From positions 558,001 through 622,000 of the forward strand of contig NZ_SKCJ01000001.1 in NCBI RefSeq assembly GCF_005434975.1: a stretch of 64,000 nucleotides of DNA, given 5' to 3'. Both the position numbers and the translations under genes were made by a program. Under the pieces are notes generated by a model, which worked only from the letters and a program-made list of their open reading frames with translations, was not told where the DNA came from and ran no database searches. Within the stretch, counting starts at the first letter, position 1, and the number at the start of each line of letters is the position of its first letter. Source of the stretch: Parerythrobacter lutipelagi (GTDB lineage Bacteria; Pseudomonadota; Alphaproteobacteria; Sphingomonadales; Sphingomonadaceae). This document shows positions 39,355 through 59,820 of the stretch, piece by piece.

Positions 39355-39360
39355 CCGGGT

Positions 39361-39921
39361 CTATTCCTGGCTCTCGCTGTCCGTTTGAGGCAAACGCAAG
39401 GCTGGGACTTCGCGCGCGGCATCGTCCGCGCTGATCCCCGGAGCGGGCGCGGCACTGATCGTTTCACGCCGCCGCTCCACCCTGCCCGCGCGCTGGATGG
39501 CCCGAACCAGCCGCGGATAGACCCCGCAACGACACAGGTTGGGGATTGCGGCGCGAATCTCGTCTTCGCTCGGATTGGAATTCTTTGCGATCAGGGCAGC
39601 GCCCGCCATGACTATACCCGGGGTACAGAAACCGCACTGGATCGCCTGTTCGGCAACCATCGCTTGCTGCACCGGATGCGAACGATCGCGAGCAAGCCCT
39701 TCGATCGTAGTGATGTAGCGCCCTTCGGCCTCGGCCAGCGTGATCAGGCAACTGCGCAACGCTTCGCCATCGACGATCACCATGCAGGCACCGCAATCAC
39801 CATTGCCGCAGCCATATTTGGTCCCGGTAAGATTGGCCGCATCGCGCAGCGCCCACAGCAAAGGGGTGTCCGGGTTCATGTCGAATTCGAGCGGCTGCTC
39901 GTTCACCGTCAAGCGCGGCAT
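39361..39921 (-). CDS. [2Fe-2S] small subunit, xanthine dehydrogenase/IorA type
   Basis: A 186-residue iron-sulfur protein. The plant-type cluster Cys are in CGNGDCGAC and RSC. The second cluster Cys are in QCGFCTPG and LCRCGVYPR. It resembles the small subunit of isoquinoline 1-oxidoreductase and related molybdenum hydroxylases. The large molybdopterin subunit is not adjacent: the neighbours are a TonB receptor and a MATE pump. A C-terminal extension of about 40 residues rich in Arg, Ala and Pro is unusual. Confidence 0.9.
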   Translation of the reverse strand: MPRLTVNEQPLEFDMNPDTPLLWALRDAANLTGTKYGCGNGDCGACMVIVDGEALRSCLITLAEAEGRYITTIEGLARDRSHPVQQAMVAEQAIQCGFCTPGIVMAGAALIAKNSNPSEDEIRAAIPNLCRCGVYPRLVRAIQRAGRVERRRETISAAPAPGISADDAAREVPALRLPQTDSESQE

Positions 39922-41385: not shown

Positions 41386-41392
41386 CACTTCG

Positions 41393-41400
41393 TTAACCAT
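41393..41400 (+). promoter_or_regulatory. CtrA-like half site before the chemosensory operon
   Basis: TTAACCAT is an exact copy of the CtrA half-site word known from Caulobacter. It lies about 40 bp before the cheA start, where a promoter of the operon should be. CtrA controls motility and chemotaxis genes in many alphaproteobacteria. An 8-base match can occur by chance about twice in the window, so position is the main support. Confidence 0.4.
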
Positions 41401-41440
41401 CCTTCTCCATAGCATGACCACGACAGTTGGGGGTGCATCA

Positions 41441-43822: not shown

Positions 43823-44250
43823 GCACGCTCTACGTCGTGATCGAGATCGACGGGCGCCTTGCAGCGGTCGATGCTGCCGACGTCCAGTCTGTGATCGAGC
43901 TGGAGAATGTCTATCCGGTGCCGCGTGCACCGGCATGGGTCACCGGTCTGACCGCTATGCGCAGCCAGTCGCTGACCGTTATCGATTGCCGCCTGGCACT
44001 GGGTCTTGCCGCTGCCGACATGGCAGGCGAACGCTCGCCGGTCGTGAAAGTCGCGGGCCATCTCTACGCCCTCAAAGTCGATGCAGTCGACGATGTGCTC
44101 GAAGCCCGCTCCGAGGTGATGCCTGTGCCCGGCGGCTTCGGCCCCGGCTGGCAGCGGATCGGGCAAGGTATGATTGAAACCGATCGCGGCCCGGTCTTGC
44201 TGGTCGATGTCGAAGCACTGATCGCCGGACCAGAAGCAAAGGCGGCTTAA
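43819..44250 (+). CDS. cheW: CheW-like coupling protein
   Basis: A 143-residue SH3-like coupling protein joining receptors to CheA. It shows the CheW pattern (VVIEIDGRLAAVDAADVQSVIEL, TGLTAMRSQSLTVIDCRLAL, VDAVDDVLEA). Its start ATG overlaps the cheA stop. It ends 52 bp before cheY. Confidence 0.9.
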   Translation: MSTLYVVIEIDGRLAAVDAADVQSVIELENVYPVPRAPAWVTGLTAMRSQSLTVIDCRLALGLAAADMAGERSPVVKVAGHLYALKVDAVDDVLEARSEVMPVPGGFGPGWQRIGQGMIETDRGPVLLVDVEALIAGPEAKAA

Positions 44251-44302
44251 GCGAATAGTTACGCGTCTTAGCTAAGTTGTAAAAAAATAGGGATCGCTTG
44301 TT

Positions 44303-44668
44303 ATGAAAACCTGCCTCATTGTCGACGACTCGCGGGTGATCCGCAAAGTCTCCCGGCACATTCTCGAATCGCTCAAATTCACGGTTGAAGAGGCCGAGAA
44401 CGGCAAAGAAGGCCTGGAAAAATGCCAGGAGGCCATGCCCGATGTGGTCCTGCTCGACTGGAACATGCCGGTCATGACGGGTATCGAATTCATCAATTTG
44501 CTGCGTCAGCAGCCCGGCGGCGACAAGCCCAAAGTCGTATTCTGCACGACAGAGAACGACATTGCCCACATTCGCGAGGCGATCAGCGCCGGAGCGGACG
44601 AATATGTGATGAAACCATTCGATCACGAAACCCTCCAGATAAAGCTCCAGCTCGTCGGCATGGCCTGA
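44303..44668 (+). CDS. cheY: CheY-type response regulator
   Basis: A single-domain receiver of 121 residues. The acid pocket is D8-D9, the phospho-acceptor D52 (LLDWNMP), Thr in FCTTEND and Lys in MKPF. There is no output domain. It is within the chemosensory operon, so its phosphodonor is probably the CheA here. Its target (flagellar motor or other) is not shown. Confidence 0.92.
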   Translation: MKTCLIVDDSRVIRKVSRHILESLKFTVEEAENGKEGLEKCQEAMPDVVLLDWNMPVMTGIEFINLLRQQPGGDKPKVVFCTTENDIAHIREAISAGADEYVMKPFDHETLQIKLQLVGMA

Positions 44669-44678
44669 GGGCTGGATC

Positions 44679-45770
44679 GTGGGCGTGGCGACAAAAATTG
44701 GGGCGCCGCCAGCGCCGCTGACCAACCGCAAGACGCGGGTGATGATAGTCGACGATTCGTTGACCATCAGAGCAATCCTGTCGCGCACGATCGAGGCTGA
44801 GCACGACCTGGAAGTCGTCGCCCGTGTCAGCAGTGCCGAACTCGGCCTGCGCGAACTCGACGCGGCGCAGCCCGACGTAGTGTTGCTGGATCTCGAAATG
44901 CCGGGCATCGGCGGCCTCAGGGCGCTGCCCAAATTCCTCGATGCTTCACCATCGGTGAAAGTTCTCGTCGTGTCTTCGCTGACGGATGTCGGTGCTGAAG
45001 CCACCATGACAGCCCTGTCGATGGGCGCTGCCGACACCATGCCCAAGCCGCTAGCCGGACAATACGCAAAGCAATTCTGCCGTGAACTGGTCGACAAGGT
45101 TCGCGCCTTGGGCCGCGGGAAACCGGTAAAGGCTGACATCGCGCCGCCGTCCGCACGGACCGCACTAAATCTCAGAAGCAGCAAATCCCCCAGGATCATC
45201 GCCATCGGCGCATCGACCGGCGGCATTCATGCGCTCAACGTCCTGCTGCGCGCATTGCCCCGTTCGCTCGGCGCGCCAATTCTGGTGACGCAGCACCTGC
45301 CAAGCTCGTTTCTTCCCGTCTTCGCCAAGCAGCTTGAGAGCGCATCCGGGCGCAAGGCCGTTGTGGTCGAGAACGGGATGCTGATCGGTCCGGACATGAT
45401 CTATGTCGCCCCGGGTGACGGACATATGACGGTGCGGGAATTTGCCGGACAATTGCAGGTCCGGATTGTCACGGGGCCGACACCGAGCGGGTGCACGCCG
45501 TCCGTTGACCCGATGTTCGAAAGCCTGGCGACAGCAGTGGAAGGACGCGCCCTCGGTGTTGTCCTGTCCGGCATGGGCAAAGACGGCGCAATCGGGGCCA
45601 AGGCGCTGACCGAAGCCGGTGGCACAATCTTTGCGCAGGACGAGGAAAGTTCCGCAGTCTGGGGCATGCCGCGCGCAGTGGCCGAGCGCGGTCTTGCCAG
45701 TGTCATCCTGCCGCCAGACAAGCTCGGCTTGCGCATCGCTTCGTTGATGGAAGCCGGTTCATGGAAGTGA
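44679..45770 (+). CDS. cheB: Chemotaxis methylesterase CheB
   Basis: A 363-residue protein with a receiver domain (D25-D26, phospho-acceptor D71 in LLDLEMP) and a methylesterase domain. Its catalytic Ser (GASTGG, about 178), His (QHLP) and Asp (SGMGKDGAIGA) are all present. It demethylates or deamidates receptor glutamates. GTG start at 44679, 10 bp after cheY. It overlaps cheR by 10 bp. Confidence 0.94.
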   Translation: MGVATKIGAPPAPLTNRKTRVMIVDDSLTIRAILSRTIEAEHDLEVVARVSSAELGLRELDAAQPDVVLLDLEMPGIGGLRALPKFLDASPSVKVLVVSSLTDVGAEATMTALSMGAADTMPKPLAGQYAKQFCRELVDKVRALGRGKPVKADIAPPSARTALNLRSSKSPRIIAIGASTGGIHALNVLLRALPRSLGAPILVTQHLPSSFLPVFAKQLESASGRKAVVVENGMLIGPDMIYVAPGDGHMTVREFAGQLQVRIVTGPTPSGCTPSVDPMFESLATAVEGRALGVVLSGMGKDGAIGAKALTEAGGTIFAQDEESSAVWGMPRAVAERGLASVILPPDKLGLRIASLMEAGSWK

Positions 45771-46636
45771 ACGATGCCTCGCACCGGATCATCGCCGACC
45801 TGCTCGAGGCCCGCACAGGCCAACATATGAGTGAGAGCAGGCGCTGGCGCGTTACAACTGCGCTCGCCGGTCTGTTCCGCGAATACGGGATCACCAATGT
45901 CGACCAGTTGGTGTGCCTGCTGGCCGACGCCGATTCCGGGAAACTCGCCAAGCGGGTCGTCGAAGCGCTGCTCAACAATGAAACCTATTTCTTCCGCGAC
46001 CGGATGATGTTCGATCAACTCGCGACCAAGGTGCTGCCTGACCTCGCCCGCAAGCGGGCCGCTTCGAAGCGCCTGACCATCTGGTCGGCCGGCTGTTCAA
46101 CCGGGCAAGAAGCGCTCTCGGTCGCTATGCTGATCCTGGACCAGCCCGGACTATGGCGCGACTGGACAATCGACATCATCGGAACGGACGTATCCGAAAA
46201 GGCAATCGAGGCAGCGCGCAACGCCTGTTACAGCCAGTTCGAGATCCAGCGCGGCCTCGGTGTCGGTCAGATGCTCGCCCATTTCGAGGAAACACCGAAA
46301 GGATGGAGAGCGAAACCGGCGCTGAAGACCATGATCCGTTACAAGCAGCGCAACATGCTCGACCCGGTGGAAATCGAAGAGCGGTTCGATCTCATCATGT
46401 GCCGCAACGTGCTGTTGTATTTCGATCCTGTTCGCCGGGTGACCGCTTTCGACCGGCTGGCCGACAGCCTGCGCCCGGATGGATGGCTGTTGCTTGGCGC
46501 CGGCGAGACCGCGCAAGGCCGAACGCTCCGCTTCCGTCCGACCGAGGGCCATCAAGGTTTGTTTGTCCGGACAACTGAGAGCGAAGCGAGCGAGCGCCAT
46601 GTGTTCTGGCCGGTCGAGCAAAAGGCCGCAAAGTAA
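45761..46636 (+). CDS. cheR: Chemotaxis methyltransferase CheR
   Basis: A 291-residue SAM-dependent methyltransferase for receptor glutamates. The all-helical N-terminal domain is followed by NNETYFFRD, the SAM-binding WSAGCSTGQEALS and the family's FDLIMCRNVLLYFD. The start overlaps the cheB end. It completes a full adaptation pair with cheB. Confidence 0.94.
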   Translation: MEVNDASHRIIADLLEARTGQHMSESRRWRVTTALAGLFREYGITNVDQLVCLLADADSGKLAKRVVEALLNNETYFFRDRMMFDQLATKVLPDLARKRAASKRLTIWSAGCSTGQEALSVAMLILDQPGLWRDWTIDIIGTDVSEKAIEAARNACYSQFEIQRGLGVGQMLAHFEETPKGWRAKPALKTMIRYKQRNMLDPVEIEERFDLIMCRNVLLYFDPVRRVTAFDRLADSLRPDGWLLLGAGETAQGRTLRFRPTEGHQGLFVRTTESEASERHVFWPVEQKAAK

Positions 46637-46712
46637 ACCGCGAGTTAACCGATCCTTAGGGACGTTTGGCTAGCACTGCGCAAGGCGGGTCCATTCGCCG
46701 GAAGGGGAGAGC

Positions 46713-48242
46713 ATGATGCTCGATTCATTGCGAAAAATCAGTGCGTCGCCCACGGCGTCGGTTTTCGCACGGTTTGCGCTCCTTACCGTGATATTCAGCG
46801 CGGCGGCCGCATTGCTGTTGATGAGCAACCTCGATCGCACGGTGTCAGCCGCACTCGTGATCGCTGACTTCTTCACCTATGGCGCAGCTGCCGCCCTGCT
46901 CTATCGCGCGGCTCTGGTGCGTCTGCCGCAAGGTGACGATGACAGCATGACGGACGGTCTCTCGAACCTGCCCAACCGCCGCGCGCTTCATGCGACTCTC
47001 AGAGACGCGATCACCTCAGGCGCGGACATTTCCGTCGCACTTGTCGACCTTGACGGTTTCAAGATGGTCAATGATCTTTATGGCCGCGCGGTGGGCGACC
47101 TGCTGATCAGGGAAGCATCGGTTGTCCTGATCGAAGCCTGCGGCGATGAAGCCAAACCATTCCGGCTTGGCGGCGACGAATTCGCCATCTCCATGTCTGG
47201 TCCGCTGTGCAACACGATCCTCGAAGGGATTAGCCGTGGATTGATCGAACGCATGGCACAGCCGATGGCGGTGGGGGACCGGCGCATCGCGATCGGGGCA
47301 AGCATCGGACTGTCCTACAGCAACGGCAAGGACGGCCTTGATGCGTCAGAGCTCCTGCGCCGTGCCGATGTCGCCATGTATGCATCGAAACGCGGCGGCA
47401 AGATGCGCTGCTCCTGGTTCAAGAACGATTTCGATCGCAATCTTGAAGCGATGCGCGATATGGATGTCGAGCTGCGTGCGGCGCTTCTGAACGACGAATT
47501 CCAGGTCCACTATCAGCCACTGGTCGATGCCCAAACGCGCGAAGTCGTCGCTGTGGAATCGCTGATCCGCTGGATCCGTCCCGACGGGCAGAATGTCGGG
47601 CCCAACGTGTTCATCCCGATTGCCGAAGAATCCGGCCTGATCAATTCAATCGGCCTGTTCGTGCTGCGACAGAGCTGCCGCGATGCAATCGACTGGAACG
47701 GCATCAAGCTGTCGGTCAACATTTCAGCGGCGCAGCTGCGCAACCCTGAATTCCCGATCCAGCTTGGCCAGATTCTGGAGGATACGGGCTTCCCGCCCGA
47801 GCGTCTCGAACTTGAAATCACCGAGACCTGTCTCGTGCTCGATCCGGTGGTTGCCGAGCGGAGCCTGGATATCATTCGCGGCTTCGGAGTGAATGTCGTG
47901 CTGGACGATTTCGGCACCGGCTATGCTTCGATCGGTTTCCTCCGCCAGTTCCGCTTCGAGAAACTCAAGCTCGACCGCTCGCTGGTGGTCGATAGTGCCG
48001 ACGACGAGGGGTCGCGCGCGATGATGCTGTCGAGCATTTCGATGGCGCAGGCGCTCAACATGAATGTCACCGCTGAAGGCGTGGAGACCGAGGCGCAAGC
48101 CGATCTCGTCCGCTCGGCCGGCTGTGACCAGATTCAGGGATGGCTCTATTTCAAAGCCATGCCGAAAGATGAAATTGCACAACATCTGAGTGACATGATG
48201 CCAGGCAACGCAGAAATTGCTGCCGAACGGAGGAAAGCATGA
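46713..48242 (+). CDS. GGDEF-EAL membrane protein (c-di-GMP turnover)
   Basis: A 509-residue protein. Two membrane helices at about 18-65 are followed by a GGDEF domain and an EAL domain. The cyclase site GGDEF (about 153-157) is intact and has no RxxD inhibitory site at the normal spacing. The EAL motif reads ESL (VAVESLIRW), with the Glu kept, and the later DDFGTGYAS and EITET sites are intact. It may therefore be bifunctional or mainly a phosphodiesterase. A GAAGGGGAGA site precedes the ATG. It overlaps the methyl-accepting gene by 4 bp. Confidence 0.92.
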
Positions 48243-49582
48243 ACGCGCAAACCAATATTCTCGCGGACGAGTTGTTGCGTGAGGTGGAGGAAGTGGAGAT
48301 CACTTATGCCGAGAACGGGGCAGAACGCTCGGCCATCGGTCGCTGGTTCATGTCAAGATCACTCGCCTCGAAGGCCAAAATCGCATCGGCCCTGTCACTG
48401 CTTGGCCTGACCATCGTGGTTGGAGCCGCCCTTATCGGATTCTCCGATCCGGCATGGGCTCCATTCGTGCGCATGGTCATCGTCGTGATCGGCGCAACCG
48501 CGCTTGTCGCAAGCTTGGCGACGCTCAAGTTCATTCTCGACAAGGTCATTGATCCGTTTCTCCAGATCACGGCAGACATGAAGAAGCTGACCGAAGGCAA
48601 ACGTGACATCACCCCCGTGGGTACAGACCGACCGGACGAAATAGGTGATATGGCCCGTTCGCTCGCGATCTTTCTCAAATCTGGTCACAAGCTCGATGAA
48701 TTGCTGGCCGGCCGCAAACTGTCCAGCCAACGCCGGGCCGAGGAACTTGACCAATTGGCCGACACGTTTGAACGCCAGGTCAGCGAAATCGTCGGCGGTG
48801 TCGCCGCAGCATCCAGCCAGCTGCAATCGACTGCCAGCACCATGGCCGCCGCTGCCGAGCAATCCAGCGATCAGGCGACCCGGGTCGTTGATTCGATGAA
48901 GGAAGCCTCTTCCGGTGTAACCGCCGCAGCCGCCGCGAGTGACGAGTTTGCCATGTCGATCGGCGAAATCAGCCGTCAGGCAGCTTCCTCGGCCGAGCTC
49001 GCCCGCAAGGCATCCGATTCCGCCGAGAAAGCCGACACGACAATCTCTGCCCTGTCGAGTTCGGCCGCCGAGGTTGGCGATATCGTCGAACTGATCCAGT
49101 CGATTGCCAAACGGACCAACCTGCTCGCGCTCAATGCGTCGATCGAAGCCGCCCGTGGGGGAGAGGCCGGGCGCGGCTTTGCCGTCGTCGCGTCGGAAGT
49201 GAAGGAACTGGCTGCGCAGACCAGCCGCGCGACAGAAGAAGTCTCGGCCCAGATCCGTGCAATGCAGGATTCCACCGGCAATAGTGTCAAGGCGCTGCGT
49301 CAAATCGGCGGTCAGATCGAGCAACTCGAAGCGACTGCGATTTCCATCGCCTCTGCGGTGGATCAGCAGTCGGTCGCCGGTCAGGATCTGGCCCGCAGCA
49401 TCGACCTCGCTGCGCGCAGCAGTGACGAAGTCTCTTCACGGATTGTCGAGGTCCGCGAAACCGCTGTGTCGACCGGCGCGGCCGCTTCCCAGGTCCTGAA
49501 CTCAGCCACCGAGCTCGAAGTCCAGGCTGCCAATATGAGCGCTCAGGTGCGCGATTTCGTCGGCCGGGTGCGTAACGGCTGA
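48239..49582 (+). CDS. Methyl-accepting chemotaxis protein without periplasmic sensor
   Basis: A 447-residue receptor. About 45 cytoplasmic residues are followed by two membrane helices separated by only about ten residues (DPAWAPFVR), so there is no periplasmic sensing domain. Then come HAMP ([21 protein letters not shown]) and the signalling coil with the hairpin [20 protein letters not shown]. There is no CheR/CheB-docking pentapeptide. It is translationally coupled to the GGDEF-EAL gene. Confidence 0.93.
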
Positions 49583-49751: not shown

Positions 49752-51599
49752 GTGAAATCCATCGCGACCGCAGCGTACGAGGACGAATCCGGTATTCGCA
49801 CAGTGTTGGGCTCGCGTGACGAGCTCGACCGTGCGATCGAAACTGGAAAGATCCGGTCGGACACGCCAATCACCGTGTATTTCGACGATCGCAGTTCCAG
49901 CAGACAGCCAGCGTCCTCGATTGCGCAACTCGCGCATTTCTTTTCAATCACCGAGCTTCGCATAGTTGAAGGTGGCGAAGCGAAGGACCGTTTCAGCGCT
50001 GCAAGCCTGGAATTTGCCATCAGTGTCGGCGAGATTGCACCGGACAGCGAAGTGCAACTCGAATATACCGATGGCGGTAAGGTGATCGCGCCCGCAGCTT
50101 CGCTTCCGCTGCTCGCCAGTGCCTTCAAGCAACGGTCTGAGAGCCCTTCGGGGGAAGAAGCCGCTAAACCAGATAGCACTGAGCCGGTCGCGCCTCAGGC
50201 GGAGGATGGCGAGACGCAGACGGAACCAGCCGTCAGCGCCCTGAATCCTCCCGCGTCAGACGATCCGGTCGAAGAACTTGATCCGGCGGAGGCGGAAGCC
50301 GATCCCGAACTGTCAGAGCCTGAGCCGGACCCGATTGAAGCCCAACCCTCCGAACATCCGGGCGAACGCCAGTCGGAAATGGACGAAGCGGTGTTTGTAC
50401 CGCAACCACCGTCCAACACCGGCAAGTTTGTTGCTTTCGGCGCTGCCGGAATCGTGCTGCTTCTGCTGCTTGTGTGGTTGCTTGGCGGATCGGGACATTA
50501 TGCGGCTGCCGATGTATCCGTCTACGACCAGCCAAGCTATGACGCCGCTGTAGTCGGCGAGGTGGCCTATGGAACAGAGCTGGCGCTGATGCCCAGCGCA
50601 GAGGCCGGCTGGCTCGAGATTACCGAAGGGCCCAATGAGGGCTCTTATATCCCGGAAAGCTTCGTAACTGACAGCGAGCCGCCCGCGCTCGACCGAAGTG
50701 CAGCAGCGGCGCTGGAATTGCCGCGTAGTGTGCCATTCTACGGTGTTCCCGATCAAAGCGCCGAAGCGCTCGGCAGCTATGGTCCCGGGACCATCCTGTC
50801 GGTCACCGGCGCAGTCGACGGCGATGACGGCTTGCAATATCTGCTGTTCCGGGCTGCGAGCGGATCAGTCATGGACCGTCCGGCCTATGTGGTCCGGTCC
50901 GAAACAGAAGTCGCTCAGCCCGAGAGGGCGCCGCTGCCGCCTGCTGCCGTGCAGGAAGAAGACGTGCCAGAGCCCGAAGAGACTCAGGCGCCAGAACGTG
51001 ACAGCGTTTCTGAAACTTGCCGCTCGCGGCGCGCCGGAATCGAGCGACTGGCCTGCGAATCGCCCCGCATAGCCGGCCTCGACCGTCAGCTCTCGCGCGA
51101 ATGGAACGCAGCGCGGGATCGCTTCGCTGCGCAGGGCCAGACTATCACCCCGCTGGATAGTTTCCGGCAACGCGCGTCATCTTGCCGGACGGAAAATTGT
51201 GCGGCGCGGCGGTTGCAGCAAGGCATCGACCTTATTCGGCGGCAACAACCGCAAGCGCGACAAACCACCGCCCCGCCGCCTCCTCCGCCACCGGTCGACC
51301 GGTCGCGCCAGGCTCAGCCGCAGCGGGATCTGCGGTCCTATTTCCGCGCCAGCGACTATCCGCGGCGCGCCGCGCGCGACGGGCGACAGGGAAGTGTAAC
51401 GGTTATGCTGACCATCGGCGGCAACGGCCGCGTTTCGGGCTGCAACGTCACATCATCGAGCGGGCACAGCGATCTCGACAAAGAAACGTGCGATGTCCTG
51501 CGCAAGCGCGCGAGGTTTACGCCCGCCGCAGACGAAAACGGCCGCGCGACAACCGGCGGCTTCGGCCCTGTTTCGATCGGCTGGCAACTGAACGGCTGA
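49752..51599 (+). CDS. Multidomain membrane protein with LprI-like and TonB C-terminal domains
   Basis: A 615-residue protein. It has an N-terminal domain (about 1-65) shared with the next gene, an acidic Pro/Glu linker (110-220), a membrane helix at about 225-245 and SH3-like repeats (about 250-400). An LprI-like Cys segment (about 421-500, CRSRRAGIERLACESP) and a TonB C-terminal domain (about 527-615, YPRRAARDGRQGSVTVML) follow. The GTG at 49752 was chosen because it aligns with the start of the paralogue. TonB family membership is clear, but ExbB/ExbD are absent. The 49583-49751 gap upstream shows no gene. Confidence 0.85.
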   Translation: MKSIATAAYEDESGIRTVLGSRDELDRAIETGKIRSDTPITVYFDDRSSSRQPASSIAQLAHFFSITELRIVEGGEAKDRFSAASLEFAISVGEIAPDSEVQLEYTDGGKVIAPAASLPLLASAFKQRSESPSGEEAAKPDSTEPVAPQAEDGETQTEPAVSALNPPASDDPVEELDPAEAEADPELSEPEPDPIEAQPSEHPGERQSEMDEAVFVPQPPSNTGKFVAFGAAGIVLLLLLVWLLGGSGHYAAADVSVYDQPSYDAAVVGEVAYGTELALMPSAEAGWLEITEGPNEGSYIPESFVTDSEPPALDRSAAAALELPRSVPFYGVPDQSAEALGSYGPGTILSVTGAVDGDDGLQYLLFRAASGSVMDRPAYVVRSETEVAQPERAPLPPAAVQEEDVPEPEETQAPERDSVSETCRSRRAGIERLACESPRIAGLDRQLSREWNAARDRFAAQGQTITPLDSFRQRASSCRTENCAARRLQQGIDLIRRQQPQARQTTAPPPPPPPVDRSRQAQPQRDLRSYFRASDYPRRAARDGRQGSVTVMLTIGGNGRVSGCNVTSSSGHSDLDKETCDVLRKRARFTPAADENGRATTGGFGPVSIGWQLNG

Positions 51600-51720
51600 T
51601 AGGCGGCGCAAGCGCTTCAACACGAGTGGGACATCCACACCGGGCTATGGACTCAGCGGGAACGCGCCTTAGAACAGCCGGATAGACGGTGTGAACAACC
51701 AGGGGCAATACTGACAAGCC

Positions 51721-53118
51721 ATGGCTCAGATTTCGATGCTTTCATTCGACGAAGACGGCGCTCAGACAATGCTGGGCTCAGTCGAGGAAATCGAGAGCGC
51801 GATAGCAGGTGGCCGGATCACATCGTACACGCCTGTTACCGTCTACATGTCCGACCGACGCAAGTCGCGGCATCCAGCCGGAGAGCATCCTGACCTCGGC
51901 CAGTTCTTCCCCAAGACCCCGGAACCGGAGGCTGAACCGGAACCCGAACCCCAGCCTGAGCCTGAGCAAATCGAAGAGCCGAAGGGCGATTTCGACCCCG
52001 AACCGGACCCGGTTGATGATGGCCACGCGACCACCGCGGCGGCGGATCCGAAGCCTTCACCGGCCCCTGTGGCGGACCCTGTCGCTAATCAGTCGGCCGA
52101 GCCACCCCCTCCTCAACAGGGCACCGCCCCCGACTATGCCGCGTTGCTGGCAGAAGCGCGGGCGCGCGACCGCAAGACGCTGAAGGTCATTCTCGGCTGC
52201 GTTGCCGGAGGCGTTGTGCTGGTGGGCGGTGCAGCATGGATCGGCCTCAGCCGTGGCGACAGCGCCGACAACTCCGACGATTACGACTATGAGGCAGTTG
52301 CTTCCTCGTCAGAGGCGGCGATGGATGCGGCGGTCGCTGATACCGGGAATGCGCAATCTTTCTACCTCGCTCGCTGGACCAATGTGCGCGCCAGCCCATC
52401 GGTGGACAGCGCCGACGTGGGCAGGATTGAACGCGGTTCTTCCGTCAGCGGGACGCTCACCGCGCCGGATAGCAGAGGCAGACAGTGGCTGAGGCTGGAC
52501 GCAGGGCCATATGCGGGCAATTACATTTCATCGGCCAATTTCATGGCGGTCGAACCGCCGCCGATCGATACCACTACCGCCGGCGAATACCGGTTGATCG
52601 AAGCAAGCGACGTCTTCGCTGGCCCGAGTGACAGCGCACCGCGCGTGTCGGGCACGGTTTCGTCTTATCCGCAGGCCCATAAATTCGAAGCTTTCGGCGG
52701 GGTCAATGGCTTTGCCGAAGTCGGGCTGGAAGACGGGGGTGTCGGATACATCCCGTGGACCAAAACCAACACGAGCCACCTGGATTACCCGGCGCGAAGG
52801 GTGTTCGTGCGCAATCGCTGCCGCGATGTGAAATATGTCGTCTTCACCTACCGTGAGAACGGTTCGTGGCAGACAAGTACTCCGCTCTGGACTTTGCCGG
52901 CGGGCGCTTCAGGCGACCTGCAAATGAACGGCCGGACGATTTACGTCGACACTCCGGAAATGTATTATCACGACTTCGGCTCAAGCAACCCGAACGGCGG
53001 CGGCAAGCGCTTTTACGTTGTCGACAAGAAGAACATCAATATCAACGGCCAGACTGACCTGATGACCACGGTCATCCCCGAGGTCTATCCCGACAATTAC
53101 CAGCTCATCTTCTGCTGA
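51721..53118 (+). CDS. Paralogous membrane protein with SH3-like domains and an unknown C-terminal domain
   Basis: A 465-residue relative of the previous gene. Its N-terminal domain matches the other (LGSVEEIESAIAGGRI...TPVTVYMSDRRKSRHPAG against LGSRDELDRAIETGKI...TPITVYFDDRSSSRQPAS). Then come an EPEPEPQPEPE linker, a membrane helix at about 156-176, two SH3-like segments (about 220-350) and a C-terminal domain of about 105 residues (VRNRCRDVKYVVFTYRENGS...) that I do not recognise. It converges with the minus-strand operon (37 bp). Confidence 0.82.
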   Translation: MAQISMLSFDEDGAQTMLGSVEEIESAIAGGRITSYTPVTVYMSDRRKSRHPAGEHPDLGQFFPKTPEPEAEPEPEPQPEPEQIEEPKGDFDPEPDPVDDGHATTAAADPKPSPAPVADPVANQSAEPPPPQQGTAPDYAALLAEARARDRKTLKVILGCVAGGVVLVGGAAWIGLSRGDSADNSDDYDYEAVASSSEAAMDAAVADTGNAQSFYLARWTNVRASPSVDSADVGRIERGSSVSGTLTAPDSRGRQWLRLDAGPYAGNYISSANFMAVEPPPIDTTTAGEYRLIEASDVFAGPSDSAPRVSGTVSSYPQAHKFEAFGGVNGFAEVGLEDGGVGYIPWTKTNTSHLDYPARRVFVRNRCRDVKYVVFTYRENGSWQTSTPLWTLPAGASGDLQMNGRTIYVDTPEMYYHDFGSSNPNGGGKRFYVVDKKNININGQTDLMTTVIPEVYPDNYQLIFC

Positions 53119-53155: not shown

Positions 53156-54172
53156 TCAGTCGCTGAAGCCCGTCAACTGGCCCTTCTGTTCGATCCGGAG
53201 CATCCCGTCGTCATCATAGGCGACGCATGTGTCCAACAGTTCGAGTGACGGATTGTCGGATTTGTGGAGATCGAAATAGGGCTGGATCCGTTCGCTCTTC
53301 TTCGCACTGCGGCTCTGATCGAAACGGTCGATAAACTGCATCGACGGGACCACCGCGATTCTCTCAGGCGACAAACGGATGCCGAGCAGGTCGCGCGCAT
53401 CGCCGTCATCTTCGCCCGGATGAATTTGTAGCCCATCGCCAGTCATGTTGAGCAAGTGAACCTGCCCGATCTCCCCCGCCCTTGCCCGGTACTCGGATTG
53501 CGTCATGCCTTTCGCGGCTTCGATCAAACCCCGCAATCTGTCGGTCGGCACCTGCTGCGCAGGTTCGGGCCGGGCAACCGGCTGAGACGATTGCGGCGCG
53601 CGATCGACCGGCGAGGATGCGGTGGGGGGTCTTGGCGCTTGGGTCGGCCTTGCCGAGAGACTCTTGTCGTGGCGCTGCAGTATCTTGGCCAATTCCGGCA
53701 AATCCCTCTCAATTTCCATCACGCGTGACTGCGTCTCTGCATGCGTGTGCTTCAGATTCTTGTGGGATTTCGAGAGTTGATCCAGGTGATCGCGCATTGT
53801 CGACACTCGCCGGCCGAGAATGAACAACCCAGCAAGCAGGGCCAGTGCAAACAGTATCGCCAGACCAGTCGGGACTAAGTCCATCATCGACGATCCATCG
53901 TCAGGAAGGCTCGTACCAGTAGTTTGCTCGGATTCGCTTGCTGGCGCGCGTTCTACAATTGCGGCCTCGCCCGAGTTGTCGAGACCGGTACCAGCACCAC
54001 TGGCTGGTTCTGCATTGATAGCATTGGTCTCTTCGATGTCGGGCTCGCTCTGTGCGGCTTCCGGTCGAGACCCGGTTGAGCCCTCCTCCTGCGCCATGGC
54101 CCCGAGCGGTGCCGCCAAAATGGCGAGTGAGACTATGACAGGAAGCATCCGGTTCGACCGCAAAAACGCCAT
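53156..54172 (-). CDS. Exported membrane-anchored coiled-coil protein
   Basis: A 338-residue protein with a signal peptide (1-27, AAPLGAMAQ), an acidic linker, a membrane helix at about 97-118 (LVPTGLAILFALALLAGLFILG) and a coiled coil at about 120-165. A Pro/Gln linker and a conserved-looking C-terminal domain from about 215 (LRGLIEAAKGMTQSEYRARAGEIG...) complete it. No known family is recognised. It is the last gene of the operon, 2 bp after the ASKHA gene. Confidence 0.75.
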   Translation of the reverse strand: MAFLRSNRMLPVIVSLAILAAPLGAMAQEEGSTGSRPEAAQSEPDIEETNAINAEPASGAGTGLDNSGEAAIVERAPASESEQTTGTSLPDDGSSMMDLVPTGLAILFALALLAGLFILGRRVSTMRDHLDQLSKSHKNLKHTHAETQSRVMEIERDLPELAKILQRHDKSLSARPTQAPRPPTASSPVDRAPQSSQPVARPEPAQQVPTDRLRGLIEAAKGMTQSEYRARAGEIGQVHLLNMTGDGLQIHPGEDDGDARDLLGIRLSPERIAVVPSMQFIDRFDQSRSAKKSERIQPYFDLHKSDNPSLELLDTCVAYDDDGMLRIEQKGQLTGFSD

Positions 54173-54174
54173 TC

Positions 54175-57100
54175 CTATTCCTCCCCGTGGACTTCAAGCA
54201 ATCCGTCACGCTGCGCGACCGGCATCGCCATGATTTCGACCAGTCGCCGCAGGGCGATCAGGAACGGCGGTTCGATCCCGACGCTGTCCTTCTTCTTGCC
54301 CTTCGCTGCTTTGCGGTCATTGCCGATCTCGTCGATCCGCTTCTTGACCGCACTGATGATCTCGCCTTCGGCGCCTTCCTTCTGACCGGTATCGATATTG
54401 ATCGACAGGCCTAGCGAGTCCTCAAGCGCTTTGAGGAAGGCCTTGAATTCATCGAGATCGACCGTCTTGATCTTCTCATCGAACAGCTCAGCTGTCAGCG
54501 GGGCATTCCGGTCGAATTCCGCGTCCTTGGTTTCGAGCCGAAGCCCGAGCGGCATAATCGAGCCGAGCCCGTCCATGCTTTGCGCGTCGATATTGATGCT
54601 GTTGTCCTCGCCCAGCACGCCGCGCACGACTTCGAGCTTAGGATCGGCTGATGCGGAGAACCGCACACTTGTGTCGTCTTCAAATTCGCACGCAGCGGTG
54701 AATACGGAGAGCGCACGCGTCACTTCGGTGACCTTGTCCGCGCGCCCGCCTTCGCCATGCATCCGCTTGAACAGACCGCCGCCGCGCCCGCAAACCGCGA
54801 AGGCGGCGTGGCGTGCGTTGTCGACATCGATCGCATCGTCGCGTTCGATAAACTGTTTGACCAACCGGCCAATATACCAAGCCAGCCCGGCAATATAGAC
54901 CAGAGCGGCATAGCGCAGCGGGTTGCCCGTGTCCGATGTGAGCCGCCGCCAGTGCGTGCTCATATTCGAATGCAGATCGGGTCCGCCGCCCTCGCCCCGG
55001 CGCGCGCTGAACAGCATTTCTGCCAGTTGCTTGCGTTTCTTCGAAGCGCCCGTACCGTCAGCCGTGCCGATCGACTTGGCCCATGACTCAAGCCCGATAG
55101 CGGTGAGAATCTGCGGGTTGTTGACCAGCAGTTCGGTAAAGAAGTCCCCGCCGGCGAGCTTGACCGAGCCTTTCCAGACCGGCGAAGTGCCATCCCAGAT
55201 CGTCATGTCGGTCGTACCACCGCCGATATCGAGGATGATGTTGAGCCCGTCGGTGACGAATTTTTCTGCCTTCAGCATGTAGCTGGCGGCAGCAAGGCCT
55301 TCAGACTTGAGCTCGCCCATACCTTCTTCGTCGAGATCTTTGCCGAGCGAACGAAGGGCAGCGATAATATCGGCCTCGAAGGTGCTGCGCTTATTGTGGC
55401 TCATCGCTTCCGGGATCGAGAACCGCCATTCCGATTTCGCTGGATCCTCGCCCTTGGCCAGCAGTTCCGCAGCCGTCATGACCATGAACTGAGTGAGGAA
55501 ATCGCTCGCCGCGTCGAGCTCTTTCTCGTTGGTCGACCATTTAAGGTCGAACTGCGCATCCTTGGTCGCCTCGCGGAATGCCGCCAGCTCAAGTTCTTCC
55601 TCGCCTTCCGCAGGTGGTTGTGCGCTGTGGAAGTAGATCACGTTGCGGAAGCTCCAAAGTGCCTCTTCATGATCGTAAGGCAGCTTGGGAATTGCGACCG
55701 AGGGGATCGGCGTGTTGCGCTGCTCCGGCGGCAGGAAGCCGTGGTAGTAATCGCGCGTGGCGTGAATCTGGTTCTCTTTCTGGATCTGGTCCATCGGGGT
55801 GACCGGGAAAACCATCCGATTCTGGAATTCCACCGCCGACGCCTCGCTGTCGCCGAACGCGCCCACGGTGTTGGTGCTGCCGAAGTCGATTGCGACTCTG
55901 GTGGTCGAAACCGGTGGCTCTTTGCTTTCCAGGTCCACCAGCACCATGCCAACAACCGCTCGCGGGCGCTCGCTACCGAACTGGTCAGCGTAAAGGATCG
56001 CATCGAACGGCTTGGAGGAGCATTGCATGTCCTCCCAGAAATTGCCGTTCTTAACGCTGCGTTCTTTCGACTTGAACAGCGGCGGGCCGCTAAGGTTCAG
56101 CCGGTCGTGCAGACGATTGCCATCATTGGCACCGCGCAGCGCGATATCAGCGTTCGCCGTGTCGTTTGCGCTCGCAATCAGATTGTGCATCAAGTCGACG
56201 GAAATCGCCTGGATCGGCCGGGCCATTTTCTCCTTGGTGGCGTTCTTGTAATAGAAACGCGCGAGATAGGTGTGCCACGCGTCCGAGCGGAAGTTCGGCC
56301 ACAGCTGCGCGTTGTAGATGTCCCAGTCCTCCGAATCGACCAGTTGCCCGTCGTCATCGACCGGATCGATCGCATATTCGCGCTTGATCTGGGCCACCTT
56401 GCCATCGGGCGAACCATCGTCGATCTTTAGCTTGAGGCTGAAACTGGCCCGATTGCCGGTAACCTGGCCCGCGACATTTTCCTTCAGTTCGCCCGCCAGC
56501 ATCATGGCCAGCGGTTTCAGCGGCAAGACCATATCCTTCAAGCCGTTGGGATGGGCGTCGATCTTGGGCTTCTTCTTCAGCCGGACCGCACGTTTGGTCA
56601 GCAGGTCGTCCTTGGTGAGCAGCAGGTAACCTTCAGCCTGTGCTTCGCCCCGCACCTCGCTGAGCTTCTGCTTCGATTTCAGCACCTCTGCCAGAGAACG
56701 GCGTTTCCACACATGAACATGCGCGGGATCGAGCCCCAACGCTTCGGCGACCGCCTCATCAGCCAGGATAAAGCCCTTGACCTTGCCCGCTCCCGACCCG
56801 GGCAGCGGTTTGAGCCTCACCTTTGTTTCCGAGACCGTGTCATCGCCGCTGGGTTCGCCCAGCTGGACGTCATTCCACAAGGCGCGAAACAGCTTGGGCA
56901 GCTTCGACTGGTTGTTCTCAGGCGCACTGGTATCTTCCGGGGCGCGGCCAAGGGCTTTCGTCACGTCCCCGGCATAGGTCCTGAGCAGGTCGGCAATCCC
57001 GGCTGCAATCGTGCCGCCATGGCTGCGGATCCCGCTCCACAATTCCTCGATATAGCGCTTGAGGATCGACAGTTCCGCGACCGACAGCTTCTCGACGCCA

Positions 57101-57684
57101 GGTGACAGCGGGCACTTCAGGTCGCCCTGCGCCCAACTGATATGCGGGACGACAATCTTGTGCGAATTGCGCCCGGGCGAAACCAGGCACACCGGGTTGG
57201 TCATCGCAATCGGCTTTTCGTGCATACCGGAGGCATCATCCGCTGTCCGCAGCATGATCAGCGCCGGCTCCTTCCACAGGCTACCATGCCCCTGGATCGC
57301 GATCTCGGGCGTAAGAGTGGTCAGAACTTCAGCCAGGTTCGAGCCATTGGCCAGATCAACCGGAAGCGGGCGCAGAGTGAAATCCTGCTTGTGCCGGAGC
57401 CGCAACGCCATCAGCGCCAACAGCCCGCGCCAGCGCGACAGCGACCGGTCGTGCAGGCTGTGCTCTTCATCGAGCAAAGCCGCGCCGAAGGCGGAGGCTT
57501 GCGCCCACGGATCCGGGATCGCCTGAATCGGCTCCTTGCGCAGATCGGCATTGCCGGTTTTCTCGACCGGCAAGCCAATCGAAATGCTCCCCAGATTGAC
57601 ATTGGTCGAGAGCCAGCAACCAGCCTGGTTGAGCTGCGGGACATTGTTGTTCGCGCGAAGGCGGGGGAGGTTCGTGACAGTCAT
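54175..57684 (-). CDS. Large protein with actin/Hsp70 (ASKHA) ATPase core
   Basis: A 1169-residue cytoplasmic protein. The first 590 residues are of unknown fold. An ASKHA-type ATPase follows: phosphate-1 motif VAIDFGSTNTVGAF (D600) and phosphate-2 motif LDIGGGTTDMTIW (D819), then an adenosine-like GRGGGLF. It may be a distant relative of the SrfB virulence-associated family, but I cannot confirm this. There are no membrane helices. It starts 14 bp after the tubulin-like gene, so it is part of the same operon. Confidence 0.8.
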   Translation of the reverse strand: MTVTNLPRLRANNNVPQLNQAGCWLSTNVNLGSISIGLPVEKTGNADLRKEPIQAIPDPWAQASAFGAALLDEEHSLHDRSLSRWRGLLALMALRLRHKQDFTLRPLPVDLANGSNLAEVLTTLTPEIAIQGHGSLWKEPALIMLRTADDASGMHEKPIAMTNPVCLVSPGRNSHKIVVPHISWAQGDLKCPLSPGVEKLSVAELSILKRYIEELWSGIRSHGGTIAAGIADLLRTYAGDVTKALGRAPEDTSAPENNQSKLPKLFRALWNDVQLGEPSGDDTVSETKVRLKPLPGSGAGKVKGFILADEAVAEALGLDPAHVHVWKRRSLAEVLKSKQKLSEVRGEAQAEGYLLLTKDDLLTKRAVRLKKKPKIDAHPNGLKDMVLPLKPLAMMLAGELKENVAGQVTGNRASFSLKLKIDDGSPDGKVAQIKREYAIDPVDDDGQLVDSEDWDIYNAQLWPNFRSDAWHTYLARFYYKNATKEKMARPIQAISVDLMHNLIASANDTANADIALRGANDGNRLHDRLNLSGPPLFKSKERSVKNGNFWEDMQCSSKPFDAILYADQFGSERPRAVVGMVLVDLESKEPPVSTTRVAIDFGSTNTVGAFGDSEASAVEFQNRMVFPVTPMDQIQKENQIHATRDYYHGFLPPEQRNTPIPSVAIPKLPYDHEEALWSFRNVIYFHSAQPPAEGEEELELAAFREATKDAQFDLKWSTNEKELDAASDFLTQFMVMTAAELLAKGEDPAKSEWRFSIPEAMSHNKRSTFEADIIAALRSLGKDLDEEGMGELKSEGLAAASYMLKAEKFVTDGLNIILDIGGGTTDMTIWDGTSPVWKGSVKLAGGDFFTELLVNNPQILTAIGLESWAKSIGTADGTGASKKRKQLAEMLFSARRGEGGGPDLHSNMSTHWRRLTSDTGNPLRYAALVYIAGLAWYIGRLVKQFIERDDAIDVDNARHAAFAVCGRGGGLFKRMHGEGGRADKVTEVTRALSVFTAACEFEDDTSVRFSASADPKLEVVRGVLGEDNSINIDAQSMDGLGSIMPLGLRLETKDAEFDRNAPLTAELFDEKIKTVDLDEFKAFLKALEDSLGLSINIDTGQKEGAEGEIISAVKKRIDEIGNDRKAAKGKKKDSVGIEPPFLIALRRLVEIMAMPVAQRDGLLEVHGEE

Positions 57685-57698
57685 GGTTTCGGTCTCCC

Positions 57699-59288
57699 TC
57701 AGCTGATCTTGCAGTTTTCGTAAACGCTTACGACTGCCTTGCCGATGCCGCTGTGCTTGGGCTGCGGGCTGGCGTTCACCAAATTGTCGAGAATGATCGC
57801 GGCAGGCGGCCCGGCAACAGTGTCACGCGCGTTGTGGATCAGCGCATCGAACCCATATGCCCAGGTGTCCTCGTCGATCGAATTGGCAAGCAGGACTGGT
57901 TTGGTCGGTTCATCGTTGGACCGGTAGAAGGGCCCGAAGCGCCACAGATACTGGCTGGTCGAAGATCGCTTCGCCATCTCCTCGATCGAGGTCGCCCAGA
58001 ATTGCACGCTGCGGATCAGATCCTGCAACGCCTCCATCTGGTCAGCAGCCTGATCGGCATGCGATTTGCCGGCGAGTTTCTGCGCCCAATTGTATTTCTG
58101 CATGAAGCCGCCAAGCGGTTGACGCAGTTCAGGGGCGAAAATGTAACGCCAGTAGATGCAGAAGCGGAGCAATTGACCGAGCCGCGCCTGGTATTCGCGC
58201 TGGTCGGCCGCCTCAATAGGCAAGTCGCCCCAGTCAATCGCCTGGTCATCGCGCGAGCTTAAATGCACGCGGGTTTCCTCGACTTCGGTCAATTGGTTGA
58301 ACTTGCGGAAAAAATCGATCGCAGCGGTAGCGGAAACCAGCTCAGCCGGTAGCGCCGGGTTCGACTGCTCGTTTGCGCCGGGTTCGTGATAGCCGAGCGG
58401 GAAAGGATCGTTCCAGCCCAGCGTATAGAACATGTCGAAGGTTCGCGCGTTGTCGCCCTCGTCGCTATCCTCCAGATCGAGCAGCTTGTGATAATACTCG
58501 AGCGCGAGTTTGGTCTTGGGAAGCAGCTCGTCCGGACGGACCACAACGTCTTCCTCGTCCTCCGGGCTGTCGAACATGAAGTAAGGCAGCATCAACAACC
58601 CGCCGATGCGCACACTGCTGGCGTTGGCCAGCTTGGCCGAACCGTTGTCGTCCGGCACCCGCATATTGTGCAACCGCCGCGCGAGCGTCGGGAAACCTGC
58701 CGCCCCTGTACCGCCAAAGGCCGAGCCGACGAGGAAGATGTTGATCGATTCCCCTTGCGACTTCTGGCAAATGTCCTCGATTGCTTCGAAAAACTTGTTC
58801 TTGGTGCCATTCAGCGAAGCCAGAAACGCCGCCGAACCAACATGCGCGCGGCCGCGATACCCTTCGTTGAGCTTCATCTTCTGCTCGCTCTCGTCATTGA
58901 GAAAGAGCATGTCGAACAGGTGTTCCTGTGGCGCATCGAGCCCGCGGCCCAGCATCTGGTGCAGCGTATCGCCTTCCGTGTTCGGGCGATAGACGACATC
59001 AATCTCGTCGTCGTCGGCGAACAGCGGCCGGATATTGGTGTTGAAAATGCTTTGTGGGCCTGCCTCGCCCCATTCGATGCCATGATCGGTGTTGGACCAC
59101 AGCCGTTGCACCTTGCGCAAATTGGCCAGCATATTGACTGTGCGGGCAACATTGCCGTTGGCAAGGTCCTGATCGACGATGCCGACATAGGTATCGCCTT
59201 CGACCATACCGCTCATCATCAGGACAAGCGCGGCCTCGACTGTCTTCGCGCCGGTTCCGCCGACGCCTACAATGATGTTCTTCGCCAT
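57699..59288 (-). CDS. Tubulin/FtsZ-like GTPase (Tubulin_2 type)
   Basis: A 529-residue protein. An N-terminal Rossmann start IIVGVGGTGAKTVEAAL is followed by a tubulin-signature-like GSAFGGTGAAGFPTLARR at about 187-204. This corresponds to the GGGTGSG loop of FtsZ and tubulin. It is longer than FtsZ and clearly not the division FtsZ. The catalytic T7 loop is not obvious by eye. The ATG at 59288 starts MAKNIIVG, one base after the stop of the upstream membrane gene. Confidence 0.85.
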   Translation of the reverse strand: MAKNIIVGVGGTGAKTVEAALVLMMSGMVEGDTYVGIVDQDLANGNVARTVNMLANLRKVQRLWSNTDHGIEWGEAGPQSIFNTNIRPLFADDDEIDVVYRPNTEGDTLHQMLGRGLDAPQEHLFDMLFLNDESEQKMKLNEGYRGRAHVGSAAFLASLNGTKNKFFEAIEDICQKSQGESINIFLVGSAFGGTGAAGFPTLARRLHNMRVPDDNGSAKLANASSVRIGGLLMLPYFMFDSPEDEEDVVVRPDELLPKTKLALEYYHKLLDLEDSDEGDNARTFDMFYTLGWNDPFPLGYHEPGANEQSNPALPAELVSATAAIDFFRKFNQLTEVEETRVHLSSRDDQAIDWGDLPIEAADQREYQARLGQLLRFCIYWRYIFAPELRQPLGGFMQKYNWAQKLAGKSHADQAADQMEALQDLIRSVQFWATSIEEMAKRSSTSQYLWRFGPFYRSNDEPTKPVLLANSIDEDTWAYGFDALIHNARDTVAGPPAAIILDNLVNASPQPKHSGIGKAVVSVYENCKIS

Positions 59289-59289
59289 G

Positions 59290-59820
59290 TCAGCCTCCCT
59301 GCCGCAGCACGAAGCCAAGCGGTACGGACTTGACCATGGTCGCCTTCACGAACAGCGCGGTGCACAGCCAGAAGCCCAGGATCGTCAATCCGACGAGGGT
59401 CGCGATGGTTATTGCGTAGCTGCCCGGATCGATCGGATCGGCAATGGCCGGGATTGAAATGGTGCGCCACCAGGCGAAACCCATGGCTACCAGAATGACG
59501 ACGAAAAGGAGCGTCCAGAGCCAGAGCCTGGAGCTCTTGTCCTTGGGGGTCTGCGGCATTGTCCGATGCGCACTGAACAGAAACAGGATGGCCGCGATGC
59601 AGCTGACCAGCAGTGTCTGCCACGCCCATCCGAACAGGTCCGACCGTGCGCTTTCCAGCGCATCGAGCACGATACGGCTCGCATCATCCGAATTCTGCGT
59701 GTTGATCAGGAGCGACTCGCTCGCATCGGAAAACGAGTCAGTGAACATGTAGAGCAAACCGAACAGCGCAAGCGCGAGGACGAGATGGACCCCGATCGTC
59801 CCGAGGATACCCTTAACCAT
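59290..59820 (-). CDS. Four-helix membrane protein of the tubulin-like operon
   Basis: A 176-residue protein with four predicted membrane helices (GVHLVLALALFGLLYMFT, WQTLLVSCIAAILFLF, LWLWTLLFVVILVAMGFAWW, IATLVGLTILGFWLCTALFV). No family is recognised. It is one base apart from the tubulin-like gene and 69 bp from the lipoprotein gene. It could anchor the cytoplasmic NTPases to the inner membrane (inference from position only). Confidence 0.75.
   Translation of the reverse strand: MVKGILGTIGVHLVLALALFGLLYMFTDSFSDASESLLINTQNSDDASRIVLDALESARSDLFGWAWQTLLVSCIAAILFLFSAHRTMPQTPKDKSSRLWLWTLLFVVILVAMGFAWWRTISIPAIADPIDPGSYAITIATLVGLTILGFWLCTALFVKATMVKSVPLGFVLRQGG

Follow-up and report, generated by a model that had tools for sequence, protein, structure and literature searches.

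Two adjacent genes in a 64,000-nucleotide stretch of Parerythrobacter lutipelagi DNA (positions 558,001 to 622,000 of contig NZ_SKCJ01000001.1; hereafter the window, from a source genome of 3.1 Mb in two contigs) were found to encode proteins, designated A and B here, that share an N-terminal domain of about 60 residues related to GYF_2, and proteins carrying this domain were found to be encoded repeatedly beside one gene cassette. The cassette is read as a putative vWA-like lipoprotein, a small membrane protein, a short Tubulin_2 GTPase, a large actin-like ATPase and a membrane/coiled-coil protein. The common domain, its relationship to GYF_2, the exchange of the domains that follow it, the linkage to the cassette and one fusion are computed results. 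The best explanation of these results, which we consider rather probable, is that A and B are exchangeable trans-envelope adaptors of the cassette that anchor its assembly to peptidoglycan and outer membrane.

The genes for protein A (positions 49752 to 51599, plus strand, 615 amino acids) and protein B (51721 to 53118, plus strand, 465 amino acids) lie where an earlier reading of the DNA without database searches (the sequence-only reading) had placed them. B starts at the ATG at 51721; the longest open reading frame of A begins at TTG 49641, and GTG 49752 was preferred as the inferred start because of the domain boundary. The proposal that both proteins start with the same domain was confirmed beyond chance, as the first copy in A and the domain of B gave a 54-residue alignment with a score of 134, compared with a shuffle mean of 22.8 (standard deviation 4.4), and 0 of 2000 shuffles scored as high. 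One such domain per protein had been proposed, which is correct for B (51721 to 51930; alignment, model and profile comparison) and incorrect for A, in which profile search and shuffle test identified a tandem pair at about residues 8-64 and 67-125 (49752 to 49949 and 49950 to 50126). The two copies of A also resemble each other more than any of 2000 shuffles, and the resemblance of copy 2 to B is weaker, with 4 of 2000 shuffles as high. A hidden Markov model built from other genomes only, containing no window sequence, recognized B at 4.2e-12 and A twice, at 2.2e-4 and 1.7e-5. The domain is not named by Pfam, NCBIfam, PADLOC or PHROGs, and a hidden Markov model search of PDB sequences gave two chance-looking matches (0.0031, with a best domain i-E-value of 5.4, and 0.87).

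Genomic linkage of the domain proteins to the cassette was well supported. The sequence-only reading had asked whether the domain recurs next to Tubulin_2 operons, and 15 domain proteins with 16 domain copies were found to flank 9 of 10 alphaproteobacterial loci with a short tubulin-like gene (two in the window and in L022, one each in L023, L028, L029 and L030, two in L031, three in L033, two in L041 and none in L042). The loci came from a scan of genome contigs (7 loci) and from taxon-wide searches, which gave a match in 6 of 296 genomes of the order, in 2 of 385 of the class and in 3 of 398 of the phylum (one of these weak, in a frame of 1931 amino acids); each of the three counts includes the own genome, and duplicate loci were removed by coordinates. 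L023, L028 and L029 belong to one genus, so the ten loci represent about eight independent ones, from about eight genera. Tubulin-like and actin-like genes are present in all ten, and a vWA-like gene was found in nine, the tenth locus, L030, beginning at a contig end. The far ends of the 15 proteins were SH3 segments with a Cys/Tyr domain (seven proteins), SH3 only (one, with SH3_3 at 2.2e-5, just below the cut-off), TonB_C (three), LprI (one) and DUF805 (three). Convergence on the tubulin-like operon, described from the sequence, is true of the window, where 37 bases separate the facing stop codons of B and the minus-strand operon, but it is not the rule: in the eight other loci with domain proteins, their genes are transcribed divergently from the vWA end, follow the membrane/coiled-coil gene in the same direction, or show both arrangements.

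Searches of 149 genomes of the family indicated the same specificity. Strong hits of the domain profile (E ≤ 1.5e-11) were obtained in the own genome (three), G023 (two), G087 (one) and G057 (one); copies from the first three genomes are part of the profile, and G057 is the only strong match elsewhere. The own genome, G023 and G087 are exactly the genomes with a short tubulin-like gene among the 149, and 1 of the 146 others has a strong domain hit. Whole B matched five genomes (own, G023, G057, G087 and G137), with the matches in G023 and G087 running through the linker, SH3 and C-terminal parts, and a separate Tubulin_2 search matched six; in G023 and G087 the two kinds of match are at most about 4 kb apart. 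The two matches of whole B in G137 were weak (1.8e-5 and 3.0e-4), and this genome has no match to the N-terminal domain or to Tubulin_2. No domain match at E ≤ 0.01 was obtained in the three family genomes with a long Tubulin_2 protein (frames of 991-1031 amino acids; L016, L017 and L018). Two weak matches to the N-terminal domain were dropped, one in G015 (0.007) lying in an unrelated-looking membrane protein and one in G094 (0.008) having an in-frame stop.

A fusion in one genus joins the domain proteins to a cassette member. A profile of the C-terminal domain, of about 120 amino acids, of two membrane/coiled-coil proteins, made with the fusion proteins excluded and without iteration, found this domain in full within the domain proteins encoded at L023, L028 and L029 (4.5e-29 to 5.3e-31), where it precedes the transmembrane helix. 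Lys/Arg counts before and after the helix are 4/1, 3/0 and 4/0 in the fusion proteins, and each of the six membrane/coiled-coil proteins scored is richer in Lys/Arg on the far side of its last helix; by charge, the fused domain would be cytosolic in both kinds of protein. The domain occurs in L022, L023, L028, L029, L030 and L033 and, with an iterated profile, in both cyanobacterial plasmid loci considered below (L053 and L054), that is, in Alphaproteobacteria and cyanobacterial plasmids, and no convincing Pfam match was found in the proteins scanned. It was undetected in the window copy, L041 and L042 and weak in L031, and the membrane/coiled-coil genes of these four loci were therefore assigned by position and layout.

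A, B and the operon seem to be gained and lost as a unit, because two congeners, G104 and G015, keep the chemosensory (Che) region upstream of A without the region from A to the vWA gene and without a Tubulin_2 match. The Che region was matched at 73-80% DNA identity, in one stretch in G104 (window 44028-49572) and in parts of 44026-49249 in G015, and neither genome has a DNA match from there to about 61.9 kb. In G104, the ABC-F region sits on a separate contig.

The shared domain had been presented as new, with a possible resemblance to GYF folds. It was not recognized as a member of a Pfam family of other function, and none of 14 domain copies matched Pfam GYF or GYF_2, even at E ≤ 10. Profile comparison by hhalign identified it as a distant relative of GYF_2 (95.7%, 52 columns, score 42.8); 200 column shuffles reached at most 17.0, none attaining the score, and 22 control windows at most 14.0. 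The GYF_2 profile was built from 27 of 30 fetched loci (3 dropped), which were drawn from genomes of the phylum, where GYF_2 was present in 71 of 378, because no match was found in 39 genomes of the own family. A domain model predicted from 14 sequences (pLDDT 82.6) has the order beta-beta-alpha-beta-beta. In the alignment, A27, A53 and L59 of B stand at the best-conserved positions. GYF domains account for the top two and for 9 in all of the best 50 Foldseek rows (Smy2, GIGYF2, GIGYF1 and Myxococcus GltJ), and seven of the 50 entries listed by VIA-align are titled GYF or GIGYF structures; these matches, CD2BP2 included, are individually weak. As in GYF_2 (PF14237), the domain is N-terminal and followed by a Pro-rich linker; unlike GYF_2, it nearly always adjoins one gene cassette in the genomes searched. 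Mainly from the profile comparison, we read the domain as a GYF_2-like one that has diverged, possibly with another ligand. The suggested likeness to GYF was therefore right, and the domain is new as a divergent branch, not as a new fold.

Both proteins combine the domain with further modules. A has, after its two GYF-like domains, an acidic Pro/Glu linker (residues 126-222; 18 Pro, 27 Asp and Glu), one hydrophobic transmembrane helix (residues 226-244; 50427 to 50483), a weak SH3-like part, an LprI-like Cys pattern and TonB_C (residues 534-604; 51351 to 51563). B has one GYF-like domain, an acidic Pro-rich linker (residues 67-150; 21 Pro, 21 Asp and Glu), one hydrophobic transmembrane helix (residues 156-174; 52186 to 52242), an SH3b domain (52336 to 52551), a second SH3-like part and a Cys/Tyr beta-sandwich (52795 to 53115). 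The linkers and the single helices had been described correctly from the sequence. More Lys/Arg residues precede than follow the helix in 10 of 12 single-pass proteins with the domain (A 1 vs 0, B 5 vs 1), and because of this charge bias the N-terminal domains and linkers of A and B are probably cytosolic.

The remaining modules named by the sequence-only reading were supported to different degrees. SH3-like segments had been claimed for both proteins: the first, predictedly periplasmic part of B (model residues 2-73) has the SH3b fold found in cell-wall enzymes (VIA Z up to 8.5; lysostaphin SH3b Z 7.0), while SH3_3 was weaker in both proteins and under the Pfam cut-off (A 0.0032, B 8.3e-5). 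Of the LprI-like and TonB ends claimed for A, TonB_C exceeded the Pfam cut-off (PF03544, 2.1e-18, 67 bits vs 24.6; TIGR01352, 1.7e-13), but LprI (PF07007) gave no Pfam match at E ≤ 1 with whole A or with the piece alone. The LprI-like piece rests on a Cys pattern and bears a faint likeness (phmmer 1.5e-4, three-sequence set) to a relative, L031:4561-5493, that carries a genuine Pfam LprI match. The conserved Cys and Tyr reported at the end of B were found again, with model positions N161, C163, Y212, Y256 and C261 invariant across 7 sequences. The fold matches of this beta-sandwich (model residues 155-261) are middling (Vps13 adaptor-binding Z 6.0, PUD-1 4.9, GH64 4.9), and no fold is claimed. 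An NCBIfam GltJ match of B (8.5e-5) spans the Pro/Glu linker, is likely compositional and was rejected as evidence.

The minus-strand operon on which A and B converge carries, counted from the end nearest B, the genes for a membrane/coiled-coil protein of 338 amino acids (53156 to 54172), a large actin-like ATPase of 1169 amino acids (54175 to 57684), a short tubulin-like GTPase of 539 amino acids (57699 to 59318), a small membrane protein with four predicted transmembrane helices (59290 to 59820) and a vWA-like protein (59890 to 61380). The tubulin-like protein matches Tubulin_2 (PF13809) above the cut-off (6.8e-9, 35.9 bits vs 27) and Tubulin (PF00091) below it (0.27, 11.9 vs 33 bits); its start codon is uncertain and is likely ATG 59288. 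T1 and T4 are GTP-binding loops of tubulins, and the loops GVGGTGAK (T1) and FGGTGAAG (T4) are present; three of the glycines in T1 and the T4 stretch GGTG do not vary among 8 sequences. The actin-like protein has the phosphate motifs AIDFGSTNT and LDIGGGTTD, and its Pfam matches to MreB and FtsA (PF14450, 12.4 vs 31.8 bits) are under the cut-off. The small membrane protein has a sequence match in L041 only and was assigned by position elsewhere. The vWA-like protein has no Pfam match; a lipobox-like ASC and a MIDAS-like DRSAS were recognized by eye. Phage records searched with the tubulin-like protein gave no match.

The core of the cassette extends beyond the Alphaproteobacteria. A tblastn search with the tubulin-like protein found six records in a plasmid collection, five cyanobacterial plasmids and one Prevotella replicon, and in the three examined (the cyanobacterial L053 and L054 and the Prevotella L055) the vWA-like, tubulin-like and actin-like genes are grouped likewise. 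The vWA match was the weakest (1.4e-4 by phmmer, window protein vs Gloeothece). The order Tubulin_2, actin-like, membrane/coiled-coil is met in the window, L053 and L054, the third gene of the window being placed by position and layout. The best Pfam matches in the Gloeothece plasmid, both under the cut-off, are FtsA for the actin-like protein (0.0028) and DivIC for the coiled-coil protein (0.004); in Picosynechococcus FtsA is best (4.8e-5) and DivIC minor (0.33). The Prevotella group (L055:7978-16475) consists of genes for a vWA-like lipoprotein and for tubulin-like, actin-like and coiled-coil proteins, followed by one for a membrane protein whose zinc-ribbon-like part takes the place of the alphaproteobacterial GYF-like domain. 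In Synechocystis, Sll0445 is described as Tubulin_2, Sll0446 as FtsA-like and Sll0447 as DivIC-like in the parts of the source covered (PMC9880817), a trio that by description has the same members in the same order. The window operon is likely related to sll0445-0447 by gene labels and order, because the FtsA and DivIC labels of the Gloeothece proteins are those of Sll0446 and Sll0447; the minor DivIC match of Picosynechococcus is a difference.

Several known systems resemble the cassette in part. In the divisome, FtsZ is a tubulin-family filament former with the actin-family partner FtsA, and the cassette likewise has a tubulin-family and an actin-family protein side by side and a DivIC-like protein in the set; unlike that pair, it has Tubulin_2 in place of FtsZ, an actin-like protein of 1169 amino acids, and a sporadic instead of a universal distribution. 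The Myxococcus focal adhesion protein GltJ, whose solved GYF domain (7z3c) is among the weak fold matches, has a zinc ribbon, a GYF domain, a transmembrane helix and TonB_C-like ends; the N-terminal domains of A and B have no Cys, so no zinc ribbon, and the likeness is one of analogy only. Partial accounts of that machinery describe GltG as a membrane protein with TonB_C (PMC3169522) and GltJ and MreB as effectors of MglA (PMC12288465). FtsZl1 is a tubulin-superfamily GTPase encoded with vWA and membrane proteins, with a predicted envelope role, typified by a protein of 1051 amino acids with a long coiled coil and with GTPase, kinase or OmpA partners (Makarova and Koonin 2010, PMC2875224). The window protein of 539 amino acids differs in length from this layout of about 1000 amino acids with an N-terminal GTPase and long coiled coil, and neither an actin-like gene nor a GYF-like adaptor is mentioned in the parts of that account covered here. 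FtsZl2, with about 300 amino acids after the GTPase domain and no associated genes in the same parts of that account, resembles the window protein in that extension and is set beside it by description only. The parts covered of a survey of GTPase/tubulin/HSP70/vWA conflict systems list tubulin, HSP70, vWA and GYF parts, with paired GYF domains in some planctomycete loci (PMC7159879), which overlaps with the parts found here; unlike those systems, the seven window proteins have no Pfam match to TRAFAC GTPase, MoxR or GAP1, and the actin-like protein is large and matches no HSP70 model. In the text covered, none of the systems compared has GYF-like adaptors together with both a tubulin-like protein and a large actin-like one, and no paper on these adaptors or their cassette link was found among the literature matches listed.

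In the proposed mechanism, the GYF-like domains would remain on the inner side of the membrane and bind a cytosolic cassette member, and each chain would pass by way of its flexible, acidic, Pro-rich linker and one helix into the periplasm. There the SH3b modules may hold peptidoglycan, TonB_C of A, a module that usually contacts outer-membrane receptors, may reach towards the outer membrane, and the Cys/Tyr beta-sandwich of B may bind a further partner. Each adaptor would thus be a constant plug inside and an exchangeable anchor outside, joined by a flexible linker. In this way a filament or scaffold driven by nucleotides would be coupled to the wall and outer membrane. The tubulin-like/actin-like pair would act as FtsZ and FtsA do and the adaptors as the GYF, transmembrane and TonB_C parts of bacterial focal adhesions do, without membership in either family. 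We infer the topology, the docking partner, polymerisation, force or sensing and the biological role of the A/B assembly. A broader proposal, that the cassette is a non-divisome trans-envelope machine of a tubulin-family GTPase and an actin-family ATPase, with GYF-like adaptors to peptidoglycan (SH3b) or outer membrane (TonB_C), a core in several phyla and plug-in adaptors in Alphaproteobacteria, is offered tentatively and may well be wrong.

A number of results weigh against the adaptor explanation. The cassette of L042 has no domain protein within 19.9 kb, and G057 has an orphan B-like protein (L024:8555-10120; GYF-like domain, transmembrane helix, SH3, Cys domain) without a Tubulin_2 match, its gene adjoining a cellulose-synthesis-like cluster (named by eye). 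The GYF-like domain is absent from the two cyanobacterial loci and the Prevotella locus, and it was therefore considered accessory and not a part of the engine. The membrane/coiled-coil protein of the window has no sequence match to other loci, and the charge bias across the helix is absent, with equal counts, in 2 of the 12 single-pass relatives. The alignments show loss of the GP and Trp signature of GYF_2, so that the binding of Pro peptides may be lost as well. The Foldseek matches of the domain model are weak (best E 0.28), and 14 of the best 50 rows are chains of one unrelated protein, pesticin, the remainder being mixed. The VIA-align leaders are chains of the TIC complex (Z 6.3, 5.9 and 5.2), followed by the Smy2 GYF domain with the highest Z of any GYF structure (5.0, 61 residues, root-mean-square deviation 5.5). 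In addition, the only experimental hint concerns motility, which fits the alphaproteobacterial hosts poorly.

Four other explanations were weighed. The claim that A and B are envelope or sensory parts was upheld in its first half, the envelope fitting the architecture, while the sensory half found no evidence of its own. A constant domain inside the cell and varied parts outside, joined by one membrane pass, would serve a receptor no less well than an anchor, and the window copy adjoins a chemosensory cluster; the periplasmic SH3b, LprI/TonB_C or beta-sandwich might read the state of wall or outer membrane and signal through the GYF-like domain to the GTPase/ATPase with no mechanical anchoring. 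Pfam names no sensory domain in A or B, however, TonB_C and SH3b commonly serve as anchoring modules, the Che cluster was not seen beside the other cassettes viewed by open reading frame list, and the congeners keep it without A and B; sensors of this kind, which are not fully exclusive of adaptors, are credible but unlikely. A machine for surface motility or pilus coupling, the role suggested for Synechocystis sll0445-0447, is somewhat less likely. As far as the sources were covered, phototaxis is impaired in mutants of Sll0445, Sll0446 and Sll0447, three proteins that were placed in complexes together with pilus proteins (PMC9880817). A CRP site is predicted for the sll0443-sll0449 unit (PMC2633013), and a comFB mutant with defective pili shows deregulation of Sll0445/0446 (PMC12313861). 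The mutants of the three Sll proteins also show altered photosystem II fluorescence, so the phototaxis phenotype may be indirect (PMC9880817). Twitching or flagellar motility is unlikely in most cassette hosts, because Flagellin_N was matched in 1 of 7 alphaproteobacterial cassette genomes (G659) and pilT_fam above the cut-off in 0 of 7, all seven having sub-threshold matches that are maybe other secretion or pilus ATPases; gliding may remain compatible with these results.

Still less is expected of a conflict (defence) system like the GTPase/tubulin/HSP70/vWA sets, in which A and B would serve as effectors at the membrane or as decoys. The overlapping part list, the plasmid location in cyanobacteria and the patchy distribution, which includes absence from two congeners, speak for it, although patchy distribution fits several readings; no PADLOC model matched any of the seven proteins below 0.01, and the hallmark Pfam families named above are missing from them. 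The convergent orientation in the window and the orphan B-like gene in G057 would be expected if A and B were bystanders, ordinary envelope proteins placed by chance beside the operon. This is highly improbable, and was largely refuted by the recurrence in 9 of 10 loci and the fusion with a cassette domain in three loci of one genus, to which the joint absence in two congeners is added. The adaptor explanation is preferred. Tubulin-like/actin-like pairs outside cell division are little understood, and dedicated modular membrane adaptors point to a site of action between cytosol, wall and outer membrane. They make the function of the cassette directly testable, and the Synechocystis mutants supply a first phenotype for comparison.

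The neighbourhood upstream of A was annotated by eye. The window region 41162-49582 contains the chemosensory cluster, with CheA, CheW, CheY, CheB, CheR, GGDEF-EAL and MCP genes, in a genome without a Flagellin_N match or a pilT_fam match above the cut-off; the cluster was rejected as part of the system, as the two congeners keep it without the A-to-vWA region. Further upstream, at 37243-39921, are a TonB-dependent receptor-like gene and a gene for a 2Fe-2S dehydrogenase-like subunit, both ordinary-looking.

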